From assembly GCA_012032815.1 (NCBI GenBank), contig JAAUQD010000013.1, positions 1 through 36,678 of the forward strand: a DNA stretch of 36,678 nt. Direction: 5' to 3'. Positions within the stretch are counted from its first letter, which is position 1. The number at the start of each line of letters is the position of its first letter. The position numbers were made by a program, and so were the translations under genes. Source of the stretch: Flammeovirgaceae bacterium (lineage in GTDB: Bacteria > Bacteroidota > Bacteroidia > Cytophagales > Cyclobacteriaceae). The notes below the pieces were generated by a model. It was given only the letters and a program-made list of their open reading frames with translations. It searched no databases and was not told where the DNA came from. Positions 15,016 through 21,348 of the stretch are shown one piece after another.

Positions 15016-17457
15016 TTACCTCCATGCCAAATTCATTTTCTTAATGCGGTCTTCAATACGCTCGGTTGTCAGTTTTTCACGTAATCGATCCACCATGATT
15101 GGGAATGCAAATGGTGTGGGCATGTCAGGTCGGGTAATGACTATTTTTTGTTTCTGAATACGAGCCAGTGCCTTGCGCAAACGTTGCTCTTCCAATTGAA
15201 AATCCATAACTTCTTCATAGGCCTGTGTCAACAAATAATTATGTGAATCGTAATCATGGAATACATCAAAAAATAATTGTGAAGACGACTGTAGGTGGCG
15301 GTCCTTCACGGGTTTACCCGGATATCCTTTAAAGACCAGCCCTGATATTGAGGCAATATCCCGAAATTTCCGCCTGGCCATCTCAGTAGCATTTATGCTG
15401 GCCTGAATGTCTTTTGATAAATCATCAATCCCCAACACATTCGTTTCTACTGCCTCCTCTATCGGAATCGCCTGATCACTCAGCAATTCAAATCCGTAAT
15501 CATTCATAGCGATGGAGAAAGTAATGGGTTGAATTTGTGCAATCCGGTACGCCATTAAAGCTGCCATTCCCTCATGTACAAATCGACCTTCAAACGGAAA
15601 CATATGCACATGAAAGCCTTCGCTTGTTTCTGTATATTCGATTAAGAACTCATTTTCTTTTGGAATATGTGAACGCTTCCTCTGCAAATCCATAAGAGGT
15701 TTTAAAAAGGCTATTTCCACATCCTTTTTACTTTCATTTGAAGCTTCACTTATTTTGAGCCGGAGCATTTCACTAAGCTGCGATGACAAGGGCATGCGAC
15801 CTCCTTGCCATGAAGGCACCATACCCGATTTACGTTTGGACTTTCGTACCTGTGCCTCCATTCCTTTCACCCGAACTAACTCAAGGTTACGTCCTCCAAA
15901 CCAAAAAACATCTCCCGGATGGAGCCGGGAAATGAATGATTCTTCAATTGTACCCAGAAATTTTCCGGAAAGCATTTTCACCCACAATGAACTATCTCCT
16001 ACAATAGTTCCAATTGACAACCTGTGTTGCGTGGCAACTTTTGGTAATTCAACTTTATACAATCCATTCTCTTTTACCACTTTTCGATATTCATCATAGG
16101 CAGTCAATGATTCACCACCAGTAACTATGAAATTTAAAACCCATACCCACTCTTCTTTATCAATCGATTGAAAACTGAAACAGCCCTTTATTTCTTCATA
16201 AATCTTATGAGCATCAAACCCACCACCAACCGCAAGAGTAACCAGGTATTGAATCAGTACATCAAATGACCGGATGTACGGAATTCGATCCTCGACAATT
16301 TTTCGTTTCACCGCTTCACGCAGTGCAGCTCCTTCTACGAGCTCTAACGAATGAGTAGGTAAAAATAAATTCGACTAACAGCACCCGGTTGATGTCCACT
16401 TCTTCCGGCTCGCTGTAGAAAGCGAGCAACCCCTTTCGGACTCCCCCACCTGAATTACAGTTTCTACCGGTCGGAAATCAACTCCCAAATCAAGGCTTGA
16501 TGTACAAACAACCGCTTTTAGTTTTCCTTCGTGCAACTGATCTTCCACCCAGTTGCGCATTTCCTGGCTGATTGAACTGTGATGCATGGCAATCTCTCCT
16601 GAAAGTTCGGGTGCCCGATCGAGTAGCTTATGATACCAGATTTCTGCAAATGATCGCGTATTTGTAAAAATCAAGGTACTTCCACTTCCTTTGATAATTG
16701 GAATTACTTTGTCGATAAGATGAGCTCCAAGATGACCCGACCAGGGCAATCGTTCAACCTCATCCGGTAAAATGGAAATGATCTCTACATCTTTCCTGAC
16801 TTCAGATCGTATGACTTTATAATTCTTTTGCTGATAATAGCTACCAAGCAATGTTTGCAACGATTGATCCATATTCCCAATGGTTGCAGAAATACCCCAA
16901 ATCCTTAAACCCGGAGCTAACGATTTTAGTCTTGAAAGAGCCAGCTCCACCTGAACGCCACGTTTAGATCCCATAAGCTCATGCCACTCATCAGCCACCA
17001 CAACTTGAAGTGACTTGAAAAAATCATCATGTCCCTTTTGTGTCAACAGTATGTGAAGGCTTTCGGGTGTAGTGATTAATAATTCCGGGGGATTTTTGAA
17101 CTGCCTTTCGCGCTGCTTCGGTGATGTATCTCCAGTCCGCACGCCAACTCTCCAATTCAGGTTGAGTTCTTTTATGAGCTCAAGCGCTGAATACTCAATC
17201 TCTTTTGATAAAGCACGTATTGGTGTAATCCAGATAGCCTGAAGGCCATTTTTTATGCTGTTCTTAGAGGTCGTTACCGGGTTGTCTTCCAGCATAATGG
17301 GCACCAATAACGAATAGGTTTTTCCACTACCCGTTGGCGCGTTCACCATGCCGCTTTTTCTTTGATGATATGCTTTCCAGGTTTTGAGTTGGAAATCAAA
17401 GGGCTTCCACCCTCGACATTCAAACCATTGTATTCCTGTCTTCACTATCTTAAGCAC
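15016..17457 (-). CDS. Ligase-associated DNA damage response DEXH-box (Lhr-like) helicase, with two apparent frameshifts
   Basis: N-terminal half NAPTGSGKTYSLLVP, VVADEWHELMGSKRG, SSLDLGVDFRPVE. Correcting the C5 run at 16443-16447 and A5 run at 16361-16365 joins [62 protein letters not shown] to the C-terminal half. Confidence 0.93.
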
Positions 17458-17549
17458 CTCTAAAATTAATGGATCGAGGCAAGCATCATATAATAATACT
17501 TAAAACAATAAACTGATTACGGTGTTATATTGCAATTATATCATACCTA

Positions 17550-18428
17550 ATGGGACAGTACTCTATAAAAGAACTCGAAAAGCTTTCCGGAATTAAAGCA
17601 CATACCATCCGTATTTGGGAAAAAAGGCATCAAATCATTGAGCCAAACCGTACGTCCACAAACATTCGATACTATTCCGATGCGGACCTAAAAAAGATTA
17701 TTAATGTCTCTCTTCTGAACAACCATGGTGTCAAAATCTCCCGTATTGCAGAGATGGACGCGGTGGAGCTGAATAGTAAAATCCAGGAACTAACTTCTCA
17801 AAGTACTGAACACCAGGTTCAAATTGATGCCTTGGTGCTGGCAATGATCAGTCTGGAAGAGGAGAAATTCGAGAAGACTTTATCAGGAATGATTTTGCGG
17901 TTTGGGTTTGAACAAACGGTGGTGGAAATCCTCTATCCGTTTCTTGAAAAAATTGGGATACTTTGGCAAACCAACCAGATAACACCGGCTCAGGAGCACT
18001 TTATCTCAAATCTTGTCCGACAAAAGATGATGGTGGCTATTGATGGACTGGAACTGCCCCCAAAAGATTCGCCTAAGGCGGTATTATTTTTACCGGAAAA
18101 TGAACTTCATGAAATTGGATTGCTTTTCTACTACTATCTGGCAAAGAAAAATGGAATCAGAACCTATTATCTGGGGCAAATGGTGCCACATTCTAATTTA
18201 AAACAAGTTTATGATGTTCATCAACCCGACTTCTTGATTCTATCTTTAATTTCTCCCCTCAGTCAGGATTCAATAGACCGTTATACCAACAGTCTAGCAA
18301 ACGACTTCCCCAATTCAATGATCCTAATATCCGGAAGCGTCATAAACCGTGCTGAAAAGAATAAACATAAAAACATACATTACTTTCGAAACGCCCTGGA
18401 AATCAAGGAGATGCTGAAAATAGGTTAA
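17550..18428 (+). CDS. MerR-type transcriptional regulator with B12-binding domain (CarH/LitR-like photoreceptor)
   Basis: MerR HTH (YSIKELEKLSGIKAHTIRIWEKRH), W-x9-EH motif (WQTNQITPAQEH), and cobalamin-binding ExHxxG-like motif (ELHEIGLL). Confidence 0.92.
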   Translation: MGQYSIKELEKLSGIKAHTIRIWEKRHQIIEPNRTSTNIRYYSDADLKKIINVSLLNNHGVKISRIAEMDAVELNSKIQELTSQSTEHQVQIDALVLAMISLEEEKFEKTLSGMILRFGFEQTVVEILYPFLEKIGILWQTNQITPAQEHFISNLVRQKMMVAIDGLELPPKDSPKAVLFLPENELHEIGLLFYYYLAKKNGIRTYYLGQMVPHSNLKQVYDVHQPDFLILSLISPLSQDSIDRYTNSLANDFPNSMILISGSVINRAEKNKHKNIHYFRNALEIKEMLKIG

Positions 18429-18433
18429 ATTTA

Positions 18434-18528
18434 TTGTTTATTGTTTATTAAAATATATTAAACATTTTATTGCATTATTGAATAATAGTTGTATTTTTGT
18501 TTAATGTTATCAATTTATAATTAAACAA
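18434..18528. promoter_or_regulatory. Cluster of TTGTTTA/TAAACAA heptamers, candidate operator array for the upstream regulator
   Basis: TTGTTTA at 18434-18440, 18441-18447 and 18497-18503; inverted TAAACAA at 18522-18528; near-match TAAACAT at 18459-18465. Confidence 0.5.
18470..18499 (+). promoter_or_regulatory. Bacteroidota-type housekeeping promoter
   Basis: TTG (18470-18472) - N19 - TATTTTTG (18492-18499), matching -33 TTG / -7 TAnnTTTG; about 30 nt upstream of the sigma factor ATG. Confidence 0.6.
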
Positions 18529-18529
18529 T

Positions 18530-19036
18530 ATGTCAACCATCGAATTTAACCAGCAGCTTGAAGGACTTCAATCTTATTTAGTGAATCTTTCGAGGAAGTA
18601 TACTAAAACTCAAGACGACTCCTTGGACCTGGTTCAAGACACACTTCTGCGGGCCATGTCCTACAAGGATAAATTCAGAGAAAATACCAATCTGAAAGGA
18701 TGGCTTTTTACCATAATGAGAAATACTTTCATCAATCAATACCGAAAAAAGAAAAAGGCCAATACATATACTGATTCCTCTGAATCTGGTTTCTATTTGA
18801 ATCAAAAGGACACCTATACATTTAATAGGCCACACAAAAACCTGGAGTATCAGGAAGTATGGGAGAAGACAAATGAAATTCGTGAGGATCTTATAATTCC
18901 GTTTAAGATGTATCTAACAGGATACAAATACAACGAGATAGCCGAACATCTGAACATCCCGCTTGGAACGGTTAAGAATAGAATTTTTCATGCACGCAAA
19001 GAACTTCAAAATAAACTGGTAGGATACGCGAATTAG
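18530..19036 (+). CDS. Sigma-70 family (ECF-like) RNA polymerase sigma factor
   Basis: Sigma2 (DLVQDTLLRAMSYKDKFRENTNLKGWLFTIMRNTFINQYRK) and sigma4 (GYKYNEIAEHLNIPLGTVKNRIFHARKEL) regions. Confidence 0.92.
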   Translation: MSTIEFNQQLEGLQSYLVNLSRKYTKTQDDSLDLVQDTLLRAMSYKDKFRENTNLKGWLFTIMRNTFINQYRKKKKANTYTDSSESGFYLNQKDTYTFNRPHKNLEYQEVWEKTNEIREDLIIPFKMYLTGYKYNEIAEHLNIPLGTVKNRIFHARKELQNKLVGYAN

Positions 19037-19043
19037 TAAAGAA

Positions 19044-20516
19044 GTGAAAAAAGTTGCCGTCATAGGTTCCGGATTTGCCGGATTATCAGCTGCTTCGGTC
19101 CTGGCCAAAGAGGGATTTAGTGTTACCGTATTTGAAAAAAATTCTTCGGCAGGTGGCCGCGCCCGGTCTTTCTCTCAAGACGACTTCCTATTCGACATGG
19201 GGCCCAGCTGGTATTGGATGCCCGATGTATTTGAAAAGTACTTTGGTTTGTTTGATAAAAAGCCGCGTGATTTTTATGATTTGGTACTCCTTGATCCCTC
19301 CTATAGAGTCTATTATGGAAAAAATGACAAGCTGGATATTCCGGCTGGAATGCAACAACTGGGAGCAATGTTTGATCAGCTTGAGCCCGGAAGTTCGAAG
19401 CAATTGTCAGTTTTTTTGAAAGAAAGTAAATACAAATATGATATCGGAATGAAAGAACTGGTGTATAAACCAAGCTTGTCCATTTCAGAATTCATTGATG
19501 TCCGAATCATGAAGGCCGCACTCAAAATGGATGTATTTACTTCTTTATCAAAATATATTCGAAAGCATTTCAAAAATAAAAGACTTATCCAGCTATTGGA
19601 ATTCCCTGTTCTCTTTTTAGGAGCCACCGCTGAAAATACTCCAGCCCTATACAGCCTGATGAATTATGCGGATATGGCGTTGGGAACGTGGTATCCAAAA
19701 GGTGGCATGAACAAAGTGGTTTCGGGAATGGTATCGCTGGCTGAATCACTTGGCGTTGCTTTCCGATTTAACAGCCCGGCACAATCCATTTCATTAAATG
19801 GAAAAAAAGCTACTGGGGTATTTGTAAATGGATATCTTGAGTCGTTTGATTACATCATTGCCGGAGCTGATTATCACCATGTAGAACAAACACTGTTACC
19901 CCAATCGCATCGAAAGTATTCTGAATCGTATTGGCAAAAGCGGGACATGGCTCCTTCCAGCCTGATCTTCTATCTCGGTATAAACAAAAAAATAAAAGGA
20001 TTGCTACATCATACATTATTCTTTGATCAGGATTTTGGTGTGCATAGCAATGAGATTTATAAAAACCCCCAATGGCCAACTGCGCCACAATTCTACATTT
20101 CAAATCCCTCCAAAACAGACGCCAGTGTTGCACCGGAAAATTGTGAAAATATATTTATCTTGATTCCGGTAGCTCCGGACTTAAAAGATACAGAAGCTAC
20201 ACGCCAAAAATACTTTAACATGGTGCTCGACAGGCTTGAGTACATACTTGACGAACCTATCAGACCCAATATTGTATTTAATAGGTCGTATGCCCACAAT
20301 GATTTTAAACAAGACTATAATGCGTTTAAAGGAAACGCTTACGGCTTAGCCAACACATTGCGTCAAACGGCAATACTAAAGCCATCGATTATAAACAAAA
20401 AGATTCCTAACCTGTTTTATACAGGCCAGCTAACTGTACCAGGGCCGGGGGTTCCGCCAGCCATCATATCTGGGGAGTTAGTTGCCAAGGAACTCATTAA
20501 AAGATCTAACCAATAA
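19044..20516 (+). CDS. crtI: Phytoene desaturase (GTG start)
   Basis: FAD-binding VAVIGSGFAGLSAASVLAKEGFSVTVFEKN, C-terminal NLFYTGQLTVPGPGVPPAIISGELVAKEL. Confidence 0.96.
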   Translation: MKKVAVIGSGFAGLSAASVLAKEGFSVTVFEKNSSAGGRARSFSQDDFLFDMGPSWYWMPDVFEKYFGLFDKKPRDFYDLVLLDPSYRVYYGKNDKLDIPAGMQQLGAMFDQLEPGSSKQLSVFLKESKYKYDIGMKELVYKPSLSISEFIDVRIMKAALKMDVFTSLSKYIRKHFKNKRLIQLLEFPVLFLGATAENTPALYSLMNYADMALGTWYPKGGMNKVVSGMVSLAESLGVAFRFNSPAQSISLNGKKATGVFVNGYLESFDYIIAGADYHHVEQTLLPQSHRKYSESYWQKRDMAPSSLIFYLGINKKIKGLLHHTLFFDQDFGVHSNEIYKNPQWPTAPQFYISNPSKTDASVAPENCENIFILIPVAPDLKDTEATRQKYFNMVLDRLEYILDEPIRPNIVFNRSYAHNDFKQDYNAFKGNAYGLANTLRQTAILKPSIINKKIPNLFYTGQLTVPGPGVPPAIISGELVAKELIKRSNQ

Positions 20517-21348
20517 TGAAAGCTATCTTTGATAAAATCTCCATTCAGAGCAGTCGGCTTACCACTCGCGCGTACAGCACATCGTTTTCACTCGGCATCT
20601 ATTGCCTGGCCAAGCCTCTTCGGGATCCCATCTATTCAATATATGGGTTCGTCCGATTTGCAGATGAGATTGTAGATTCATTTCATGGATTCAAAAGGAT
20701 GAATTATTAAAGCGATTCAAAATGATACCTACCTGGCTATTGAAGAAGGGATTAGTTTAAATCCAATCTTGAATAGTTTCCAACATACTGTAAACGAATA
20801 TAAAATTGACCGAGATCTAATCAATAAGTTTCTACTTAGTATGGAAATGGATCTGATTAAAACTGACCACACCAAATCAAGCTACAAAAACTATATCCTT
20901 GGTTCGGCTGAGGTGGTTGGGCTCATGTGCCTGAAGGTGTTTGTACAAGGTGATCAACAGAAATACAATGAATTGAAACCATTTGCCATGAGCCTTGGAG
21001 CTGCATTTCAAAAGTTAACTTTCTTCGTGATTTGCGTGCTGACTATAAAGATCTGGGCAGATCCTACTTTCCGGAAATTAATATAGAGCGATTCGATGAA
21101 TCGGCTAAGGCATTAGTTGAAAAGAGATTAGTGAAGATTTTACCAACGCCTTGAATGGAATAAGAAAGTTACCACGCTCTTCCCGTTTTGGAGTGTACGT
21201 GGCTTATGTCTATTATCTCGCTCTGTTCAATAAAATAAAGAGTGTAAAACCAGAGCAGATTATGGAAAAGAGATTTAGAATTCAAAATCGGTATAAATTA
21301 CAGTTATTGGCAACTTCCTATCTCAAACATCAACTAAACAGGATATGA
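20516..21348 (+). CDS. crtB: Phytoene synthase, interrupted by four apparent -1 frameshifts
   Basis: Parts in three frames: AYSTSFSLGIYCLAKPLRDPIYSIYGFVRFADEIVDSFHGF / DELLKAIQNDTYLAIEEGISLNPILNSFQ / LGAAFQKVNFLRDLRADYKDLGRSYFP / FTNALNGIRKLPRSSRFGVYVAYVYY. Start overlaps crtI stop (TAATG). Confidence 0.93.

Follow-up and report, generated by a model that had tools for sequence, protein, structure and literature searches.

The locus and its proposed regulator

The DNA analysed here, referred to as the window, is a 36.7-kb stretch (36,678 nucleotides) from a Flammeovirgaceae bacterium. Near its middle, the gene for an orthologue of the B12 light sensor CarH is followed by a short intergenic gap, a gene for an ECF-type sigma factor and the beginning of a carotenoid cluster. 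The features relevant to this analysis, in order along the window, are as follows.

17550-18428, + strand: carH orthologue, 292 amino acids, with MerR-type DNA-binding and B12-binding domains; the proposed operator binder
18429-18529: carH-sigma intergenic gap, 101 bp, 88% A+T
18434-18465: O1, imperfect inverted repeat TTGTTTAT-N16-TTAAACAT, half-sites 18434-18441 and 18458-18465, upstream of the -33 element
18441-18447, + strand: second abutting TTGTTTA, mostly within the O1 spacer
18470-18472, + strand: -33 element TTG; 20 of 42 orthologous gaps have a TTG 19 bp ahead of the -7 element
18492-18499, + strand: -7 element TATTTTTG (consensus TAnnTTTG), overlapped by O2
18497-18528: O2, perfect inverted repeat TTGTTTAA-N16-TTAAACAA, half-sites 18497-18504 and 18521-18528
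18530-19036, + strand: ECF-type sigma factor gene (Pfam Sigma70_r2, 1e-13; Sigma70_r4_2, 2e-9), the proposed regulated gene
19044-20516, + strand: crtI-type phytoene desaturase gene (NCBIfam CrtID, 737 bits against a cut-off of 640), the first carotenoid gene after the sigma gene

The product of the gene at 17550-18428 matches the Pfam families MerR_1 (1e-14) and B12-binding_2 (1e-10). Two sequence motifs, Wx9EH and ExHxxG, define CarH (PMC8156234), and both are found in this protein. The first is represented by W139, E149 and H150, which are invariant in alignments of 13 and of 26 homologues, and the second is the B12-binding motif ELHEIG at residues 185-190, where H187 is invariant and E185 is invariant or nearly so. 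An AlphaFold2 model of the orthologue (pLDDT 86) has its best PDB matches to the CarH of Thermus thermophilus, TtCarH (5c8e/5c8d, E about 1e-16), at a sequence identity of ~20%. Together, the model and the Pfam matches give the MerR winged helix, the four-helix bundle and the Rossmann B12 domain. The best-scoring NCBIfam model is NF052513, the CarH equivalog, at 85.6 bits against a cut-off of 400; this is a narrow equivalog model rather than the definition of the CarH family.

Some reading frames in the window appear to be interrupted. At 20516-21340, crtB (phytoene synthase) is apparently broken by frameshifts, and on the minus strand at 15016-17457 a ligase-associated DEXH helicase (TIGR04121) is apparently split into two frames near 16311-16375, the match in the upstream frame covering only about the first 330 of 804 model positions. 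The broken crtB and the other split genes point to indel errors in the draft assembly or to real decay.

Repeated heptamers and an inverted repeat in the gap

The preliminary description of this locus, made from the sequence by itself, drew attention to an array of TTGTTTA heptamers in the carH-sigma gap. The copies are all present where it had placed them, at 18434-18440, 18441-18447 and 18497-18503, with an exact inverted copy, TAAACAA, at 18522-18528 and a six-of-seven inverted copy, TAAACAT, at 18459-18465. That description had also warned that A+T richness raises the number of chance matches. Across the whole window enrichment is mild, with 17 heptamers against 11.4 expected and 7 of 100 shuffles reaching 17. 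Within the gap there are four copies against 0.28 expected, a density beyond that of shuffles (P(>=4) = 0.00025, from 20,000 shuffles of the gap sequence that preserved its dinucleotides) and one that is unmatched anywhere else in the window.

The repeats are two copies of a conserved 32-bp inverted repeat, TTGTnnAA-N16-TTnnACAA, and their occurrence is beyond chance. With spacers of 10 to 23 allowed, the window contains no inverted pairs of this kind other than O1 and O2, and none of 20,000 local shuffles of the gap produced two. In a pattern search of the window's own genome, O2 was the sole exact match to TTGTYYAA-N15..17-TTRRACAA. Beginning within the -7 element, O2 runs across the expected start site and through the leader, and stops 1 bp before the ATG of the sigma gene at 18530.

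The heptamer array as a unit was therefore ruled out: its second abutting copy is unconserved, whereas the inverted pair with spacer 16 is conserved. No half-site at the offset of the copy at 18441-18447 is conserved among the orthologous gaps, and this copy is probably incidental. Conversely, the inverted copy at 18459-18465 that had been taken as imperfect is a genuine half-site of O1. The initial repressor-operator proposal withstood the two tests, of density and of conservation, that the preliminary description had set for its refutation. What stands of it is a conserved operator that overlaps the Bacteroidota-type promoter of the sigma gene; the heptamer-array architecture does not.

Elsewhere in the window, no site resembling O1 or O2 was found before carH, and none was found before the photolyase or SRPBCC genes at the threshold used. 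A partly conserved element of a different type lies at 17504-17527; it consists of AACAATTT, a spacer of ~10 bp or more, and GGTTA/TGTTA, and occurs ~45 bp before carH in 21 of 42 loci of the genus.

Conservation in orthologous gaps

Footprinting across orthologous carH-sigma gaps, which the preliminary description had proposed as a check, covered at first 30 gaps from whole genomes and later 46 gaps under 300 bp. The inverted pair is common to these gaps, often twice and in a fixed register, with O1 ahead of the -33 element and O2 across the -7 element and stopping ~1 bp short of the sigma ATG. Pairs with spacer 16 are found in 45 of the 46, compared with about 0.4-0.5 in shuffles, although within the genus such shuffle significance is overstated because the homologues are related; the cross-family and genome-wide tests described below are independent of a single-locus alignment. 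The same number of gaps (45/46) is reached when cores alone are counted, as converging cores 24 bp apart from start to start.

In the set of O2 sites, T-G-T-n-n-A on the left and T-n-n-A-C-A on the right are present in 45 of 45, with variation confined to the two n positions and the flanks; some of this conservation is built in because site choice required six of eight matches per half, and that choice did not favour the invariant core positions over the flanking ones. Among 80 named loci (L191-L270), spacer 16 yielded 91 sites, spacer 17 yielded 20, and the other spacers tried yielded 0-6. The spacer-17 sites may thus represent a smaller class that is one base pair longer.

The distance between O1 and O2 is also constrained. 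It is 63 bp in 16 of 26 orthologous gaps, 62-64 bp in 23 of the 26, and 43-44 bp in two more. The shorter distance between dyads is usual in Algoriphagus, as judged from the named loci, and is found in some other genera. At 10.5 bp per turn, 63 bp corresponds to 6.0 helical turns and 44 bp to 4.2.

The operators of CarH mapped so far in the open-access literature are tandem 11-bp direct repeats (PMC9304148). This form was ruled out at the present locus, as same-strand cores 11 bp apart occur in only 2 of 46 gaps, which is at chance level (shuffles: mean 0.8, maximum 4). Two same-strand cores 21 bp, or two turns, apart are seen in 16 of 46 gaps, apparently one at the -33 TTG and the other at the left half of O2; this spacing may reflect a fifth half-site or may simply follow from the promoter.

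The overlapping promoter

The TTG-N19-TATTTTTG promoter of the preliminary description, with the third heptamer copy over its -7 element, is present as it had been placed. The -7 consensus TAnnTTTG is known from published work, in which a -33 motif was not found in Flavobacterium (PMC7366714). In 30 of 42 orthologous gaps, TAnnTTTG is exact at the point where the left half of O2 meets the -7 element. In some other families (for example, L040 and L048) the -7 element overlaps the right half of O2 instead.

Could the conserved bases be nothing but the promoter and translation signals to be expected in any A+T-rich leader, that is, the TTTG of the -7 element together with an A-rich stretch before the ATG? 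The left half of O2 does overlap TAnnTTTG, its right half immediately precedes the ATG, a position that favours A-rich sequence, and the gap as a whole is 88% A+T. This explanation is nevertheless very improbable. O1 carries the same pair with the same spacer upstream of the promoter, the -7 element can be found at either half of the site, and the distance from site to ATG varies by more than 100 bp between genes. The preference for spacer 16 over all others except 17 in the named loci, and the genome-wide tie of the site to the presence of carH, argue against it as well. Slimmer still are the prospects of the inverted repeat acting as an RNA hairpin in the sigma-gene leader instead of as a protein site. 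In its favour are the complementarity of the two halves and an agreement between them at variable positions 5 and 6 that exceeds that in shuffles; this covariation, pooled over all loci, mixes orientations, chance sites and relatedness and is a hint only. Against this, transcription is expected to start at or downstream of the left half of O2, which would leave just the right half in the RNA, and O1 would not be transcribed from the sigma promoter at all. The stem would consist of ~8 base pairs, mostly A-U, around a loop of 16 nt, and in the oriented O2 set, pairing-breaking C-A mismatches at positions 5, 6 and 9 outnumber the tolerated U-G ones by 17 to 5. These mismatches between halves and the position in the leader led us to judge a hairpin unlikely.

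Association with CarH

The link between the site and CarH comes from the bases themselves and from the distribution of the site among genomes. The published CarH core is nnnnTnnACAn (PMC9304148), with a TnnACA core also given elsewhere (PMC8156234), and the invariant TGTnnA/TnnACA at both halves of the 45 O2-set sites is exactly this core. Furthermore, 49 of 72 relatives that have carH contain the exact site, compared with 0 of 25 that lack it (p = 3e-10). A phylum-wide sample of 297 genomes gave 44 of 63 with carH against 11 of 234 without (p = 4e-27). When only relatives bearing crtI are considered, 46 of the 67 with carH have the site, compared with 0 of the 6 lacking carH (p = 0.0017). Several of the genomes scored as lacking carH are incomplete and the genomes are partly metagenome-assembled; the 23 of 72 carH-bearing relatives without a match concern the exact pattern, and strict patterns miss variant sites.

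Control patterns behaved differently in the relatives. The pattern written backwards gave 12 sites compared with 70 for the true pattern. With the spacer set to 20 there were 22 sites, none of them in the window's own genome, and 12 of them belonging to one repeat family in two genomes. This family, in G078 and G093, is a dispersed repeat with ends TTGTCCAAGTC...GACTTGGACAA.

Three lines of evidence, namely conservation in the gaps, the joint occurrence of site and carH, and half-site bases that match the CarH core, make the neighbouring CarH-type regulator by far the best candidate, and the operator is very probably bound by it in the dark. A partner always inherited with carH would show the same co-occurrence and cannot be fully told apart from CarH on this basis, and another regulator of the pathway, such as a TetR_C_23 protein or the ECF sigma factor, has to be considered as the binder. 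Dimeric regulators typically use inverted repeats, the CarH proteins characterized so far use direct repeats (PMC9304148), and in two genomes TetR_C_23 genes follow the operator. These TetR genes, however, lie downstream of the site, as is expected of targets. The sigma factor was ruled out, as three genomes without a detectable sigma orthologue (G069, G073 and G074) keep their sites. With the invariant bases being those of the CarH core, and the site missing from all 25 relatives without carH, including the six that have crtI, a binder other than CarH is improbable.

Sites at other genes

Sites unlinked to carH indicate which other genes the operator accompanies. Across the order, the exact site precedes the carotenoid sigma gene in 14 loci and is also found before photolyase genes (L117, L120), an SRPBCC-like gene (L118), carH itself (L110) and, in the two genomes already mentioned, TetR_C_23 genes (L116, L119). 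About five of the sites in the order are inside reading frames and are probably due to chance. In the phylum sample, the site is directly before crtI at five loci (L151, L154, L158, L160, L161), before carH at one (L162) and before an SRPBCC-like gene at another (L156). Among the named loci it extends to Bacteroidales relatives, for example Marinifilum and Ancylomarina.

Two further gene types are preceded by an exact operator. Named records place the window in Cyclobacteriaceae (Cytophagales), and in another member of that family (L138) the operator at 1501-1532 of the locus stands before a bacteriorhodopsin-like gene at 1600-2346 (PF01036, 6e-42), which suggests control of a rhodopsin by B12 and light. 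In five genomes (loci L139, L146, L147, L155, L159), an operator, at 1501-1532 of each locus, lies a few tens of bp upstream of a gene for a fasciclin-domain protein (PF02469); no link of such proteins to light was found in the literature searched.

A proposed light-released operator

Taking these observations together, we consider it highly likely that O1 and O2 are operators to which CarH binds in its dark state, with adenosylcobalamin (AdoCbl), so as to block the sigma promoter, and from which light would release it; binder, repression and release are all predictions. By analogy with characterized CarH proteins (PMC8156234), AdoCbl-bound CarH would occupy both O1 and O2 in the dark. On O2, which takes in part of the -7 element and the region of the start site, it would block the RNA polymerase of the main sigma factor, and on O1, about six turns upstream on the same face of the helix, it would strengthen CarH binding cooperatively. 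The two pairs provide four half-sites, one for each DNA-binding domain if this CarH is a tetramer as in Thermus; the CarH of Cystobacter is a dimer (PMC9304148). Light would then break the Co-C bond, so that CarH falls apart and leaves the DNA, and the ECF sigma factor would be made and switch on the carotenoid cluster. The cooperativity, the occupancy by four domains and the action of the sigma factor on the crt genes are steps that we infer.

Comparison with known operators

The proposed system shares much with those of T. thermophilus and Bacillus megaterium. The TnnACA core is the same (PMC9304148, PMC8156234), as are the domain order, the B12 motifs and the fold of the protein, and in both cases the operator lies over a promoter, which is the core promoter of light-induced carotenoid genes in those organisms and the sigma promoter here. 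The differences are in arrangement and target. Half-sites form inverted pairs 24 bp apart here, usually two such pairs, but are placed in tandem every 11 bp in T. thermophilus and B. megaterium; and the promoter here is of the -7/-33 type and serves a sigma gene, whereas carotenoid genes are controlled directly in those species. No description of a CarH operator from Bacteroidota was found in the open-access literature, and from its sequence this inverted-repeat operator is a new architecture within the known CarH system. A candidate basis for the switch may lie in the DNA-binding wing, where T37 and N38 are invariant in place of the GGH of TtCarH (TNIRxY compared with GGHRLY).

The CarA/CarH operator of Myxococcus xanthus (~55 bp, P crt / PB) is likewise in two parts, one upstream of the promoter and one over it. 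In the account given in PMC9304148, which cites Lopez-Rubio 2004, it was first described as two inverted repeats. Later work pointed to recognition of 11-bp direct repeats, and the inverted repeats were not conserved among relatives (PMC9304148). Unlike that case, the inverted arrangement described here is conserved across a phylum. Classical operators of the MerR family (MerR, SoxR, CueR, BmrR) have dyad symmetry, and a MerR-type DNA-binding domain recognizes them, as proposed here. Their half-sites are much closer together, within the spacer between the -35 and -10 elements, whereas a distance of 24 bp separates the halves here, and O2 is situated over the -7 element and beyond it in the downstream direction. 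This position and spacing suggest occlusion of the promoter rather than its distortion.

Implications for light regulation in Bacteroidota

Among photoreceptors based on B12, CarH is the one understood best, and it is in common use in optogenetics; its operators have been mapped in only a few phyla. A broader proposal, to which we would give an even chance, is that the CarH proteins of Bacteroidota recognize inverted TnnACA pairs 24 bp apart, that one tetramer bridges two such pairs on the same face, and that these sites define a phylum-wide B12-light regulon of carotenoid, photolyase, rhodopsin, fasciclin-domain and SRPBCC genes, with the sigma factor as a relay. The sequence signature would make this light regulon readable from genomes, including its carotenoid, photolyase and rhodopsin genes and their promoters. 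It also raises the structural question of how CarH, from a family known for direct repeats, may use inverted half-sites 24 bp apart. Furthermore, the short operator and its matching regulator could serve as a light switch in a phylum that has few such tools.
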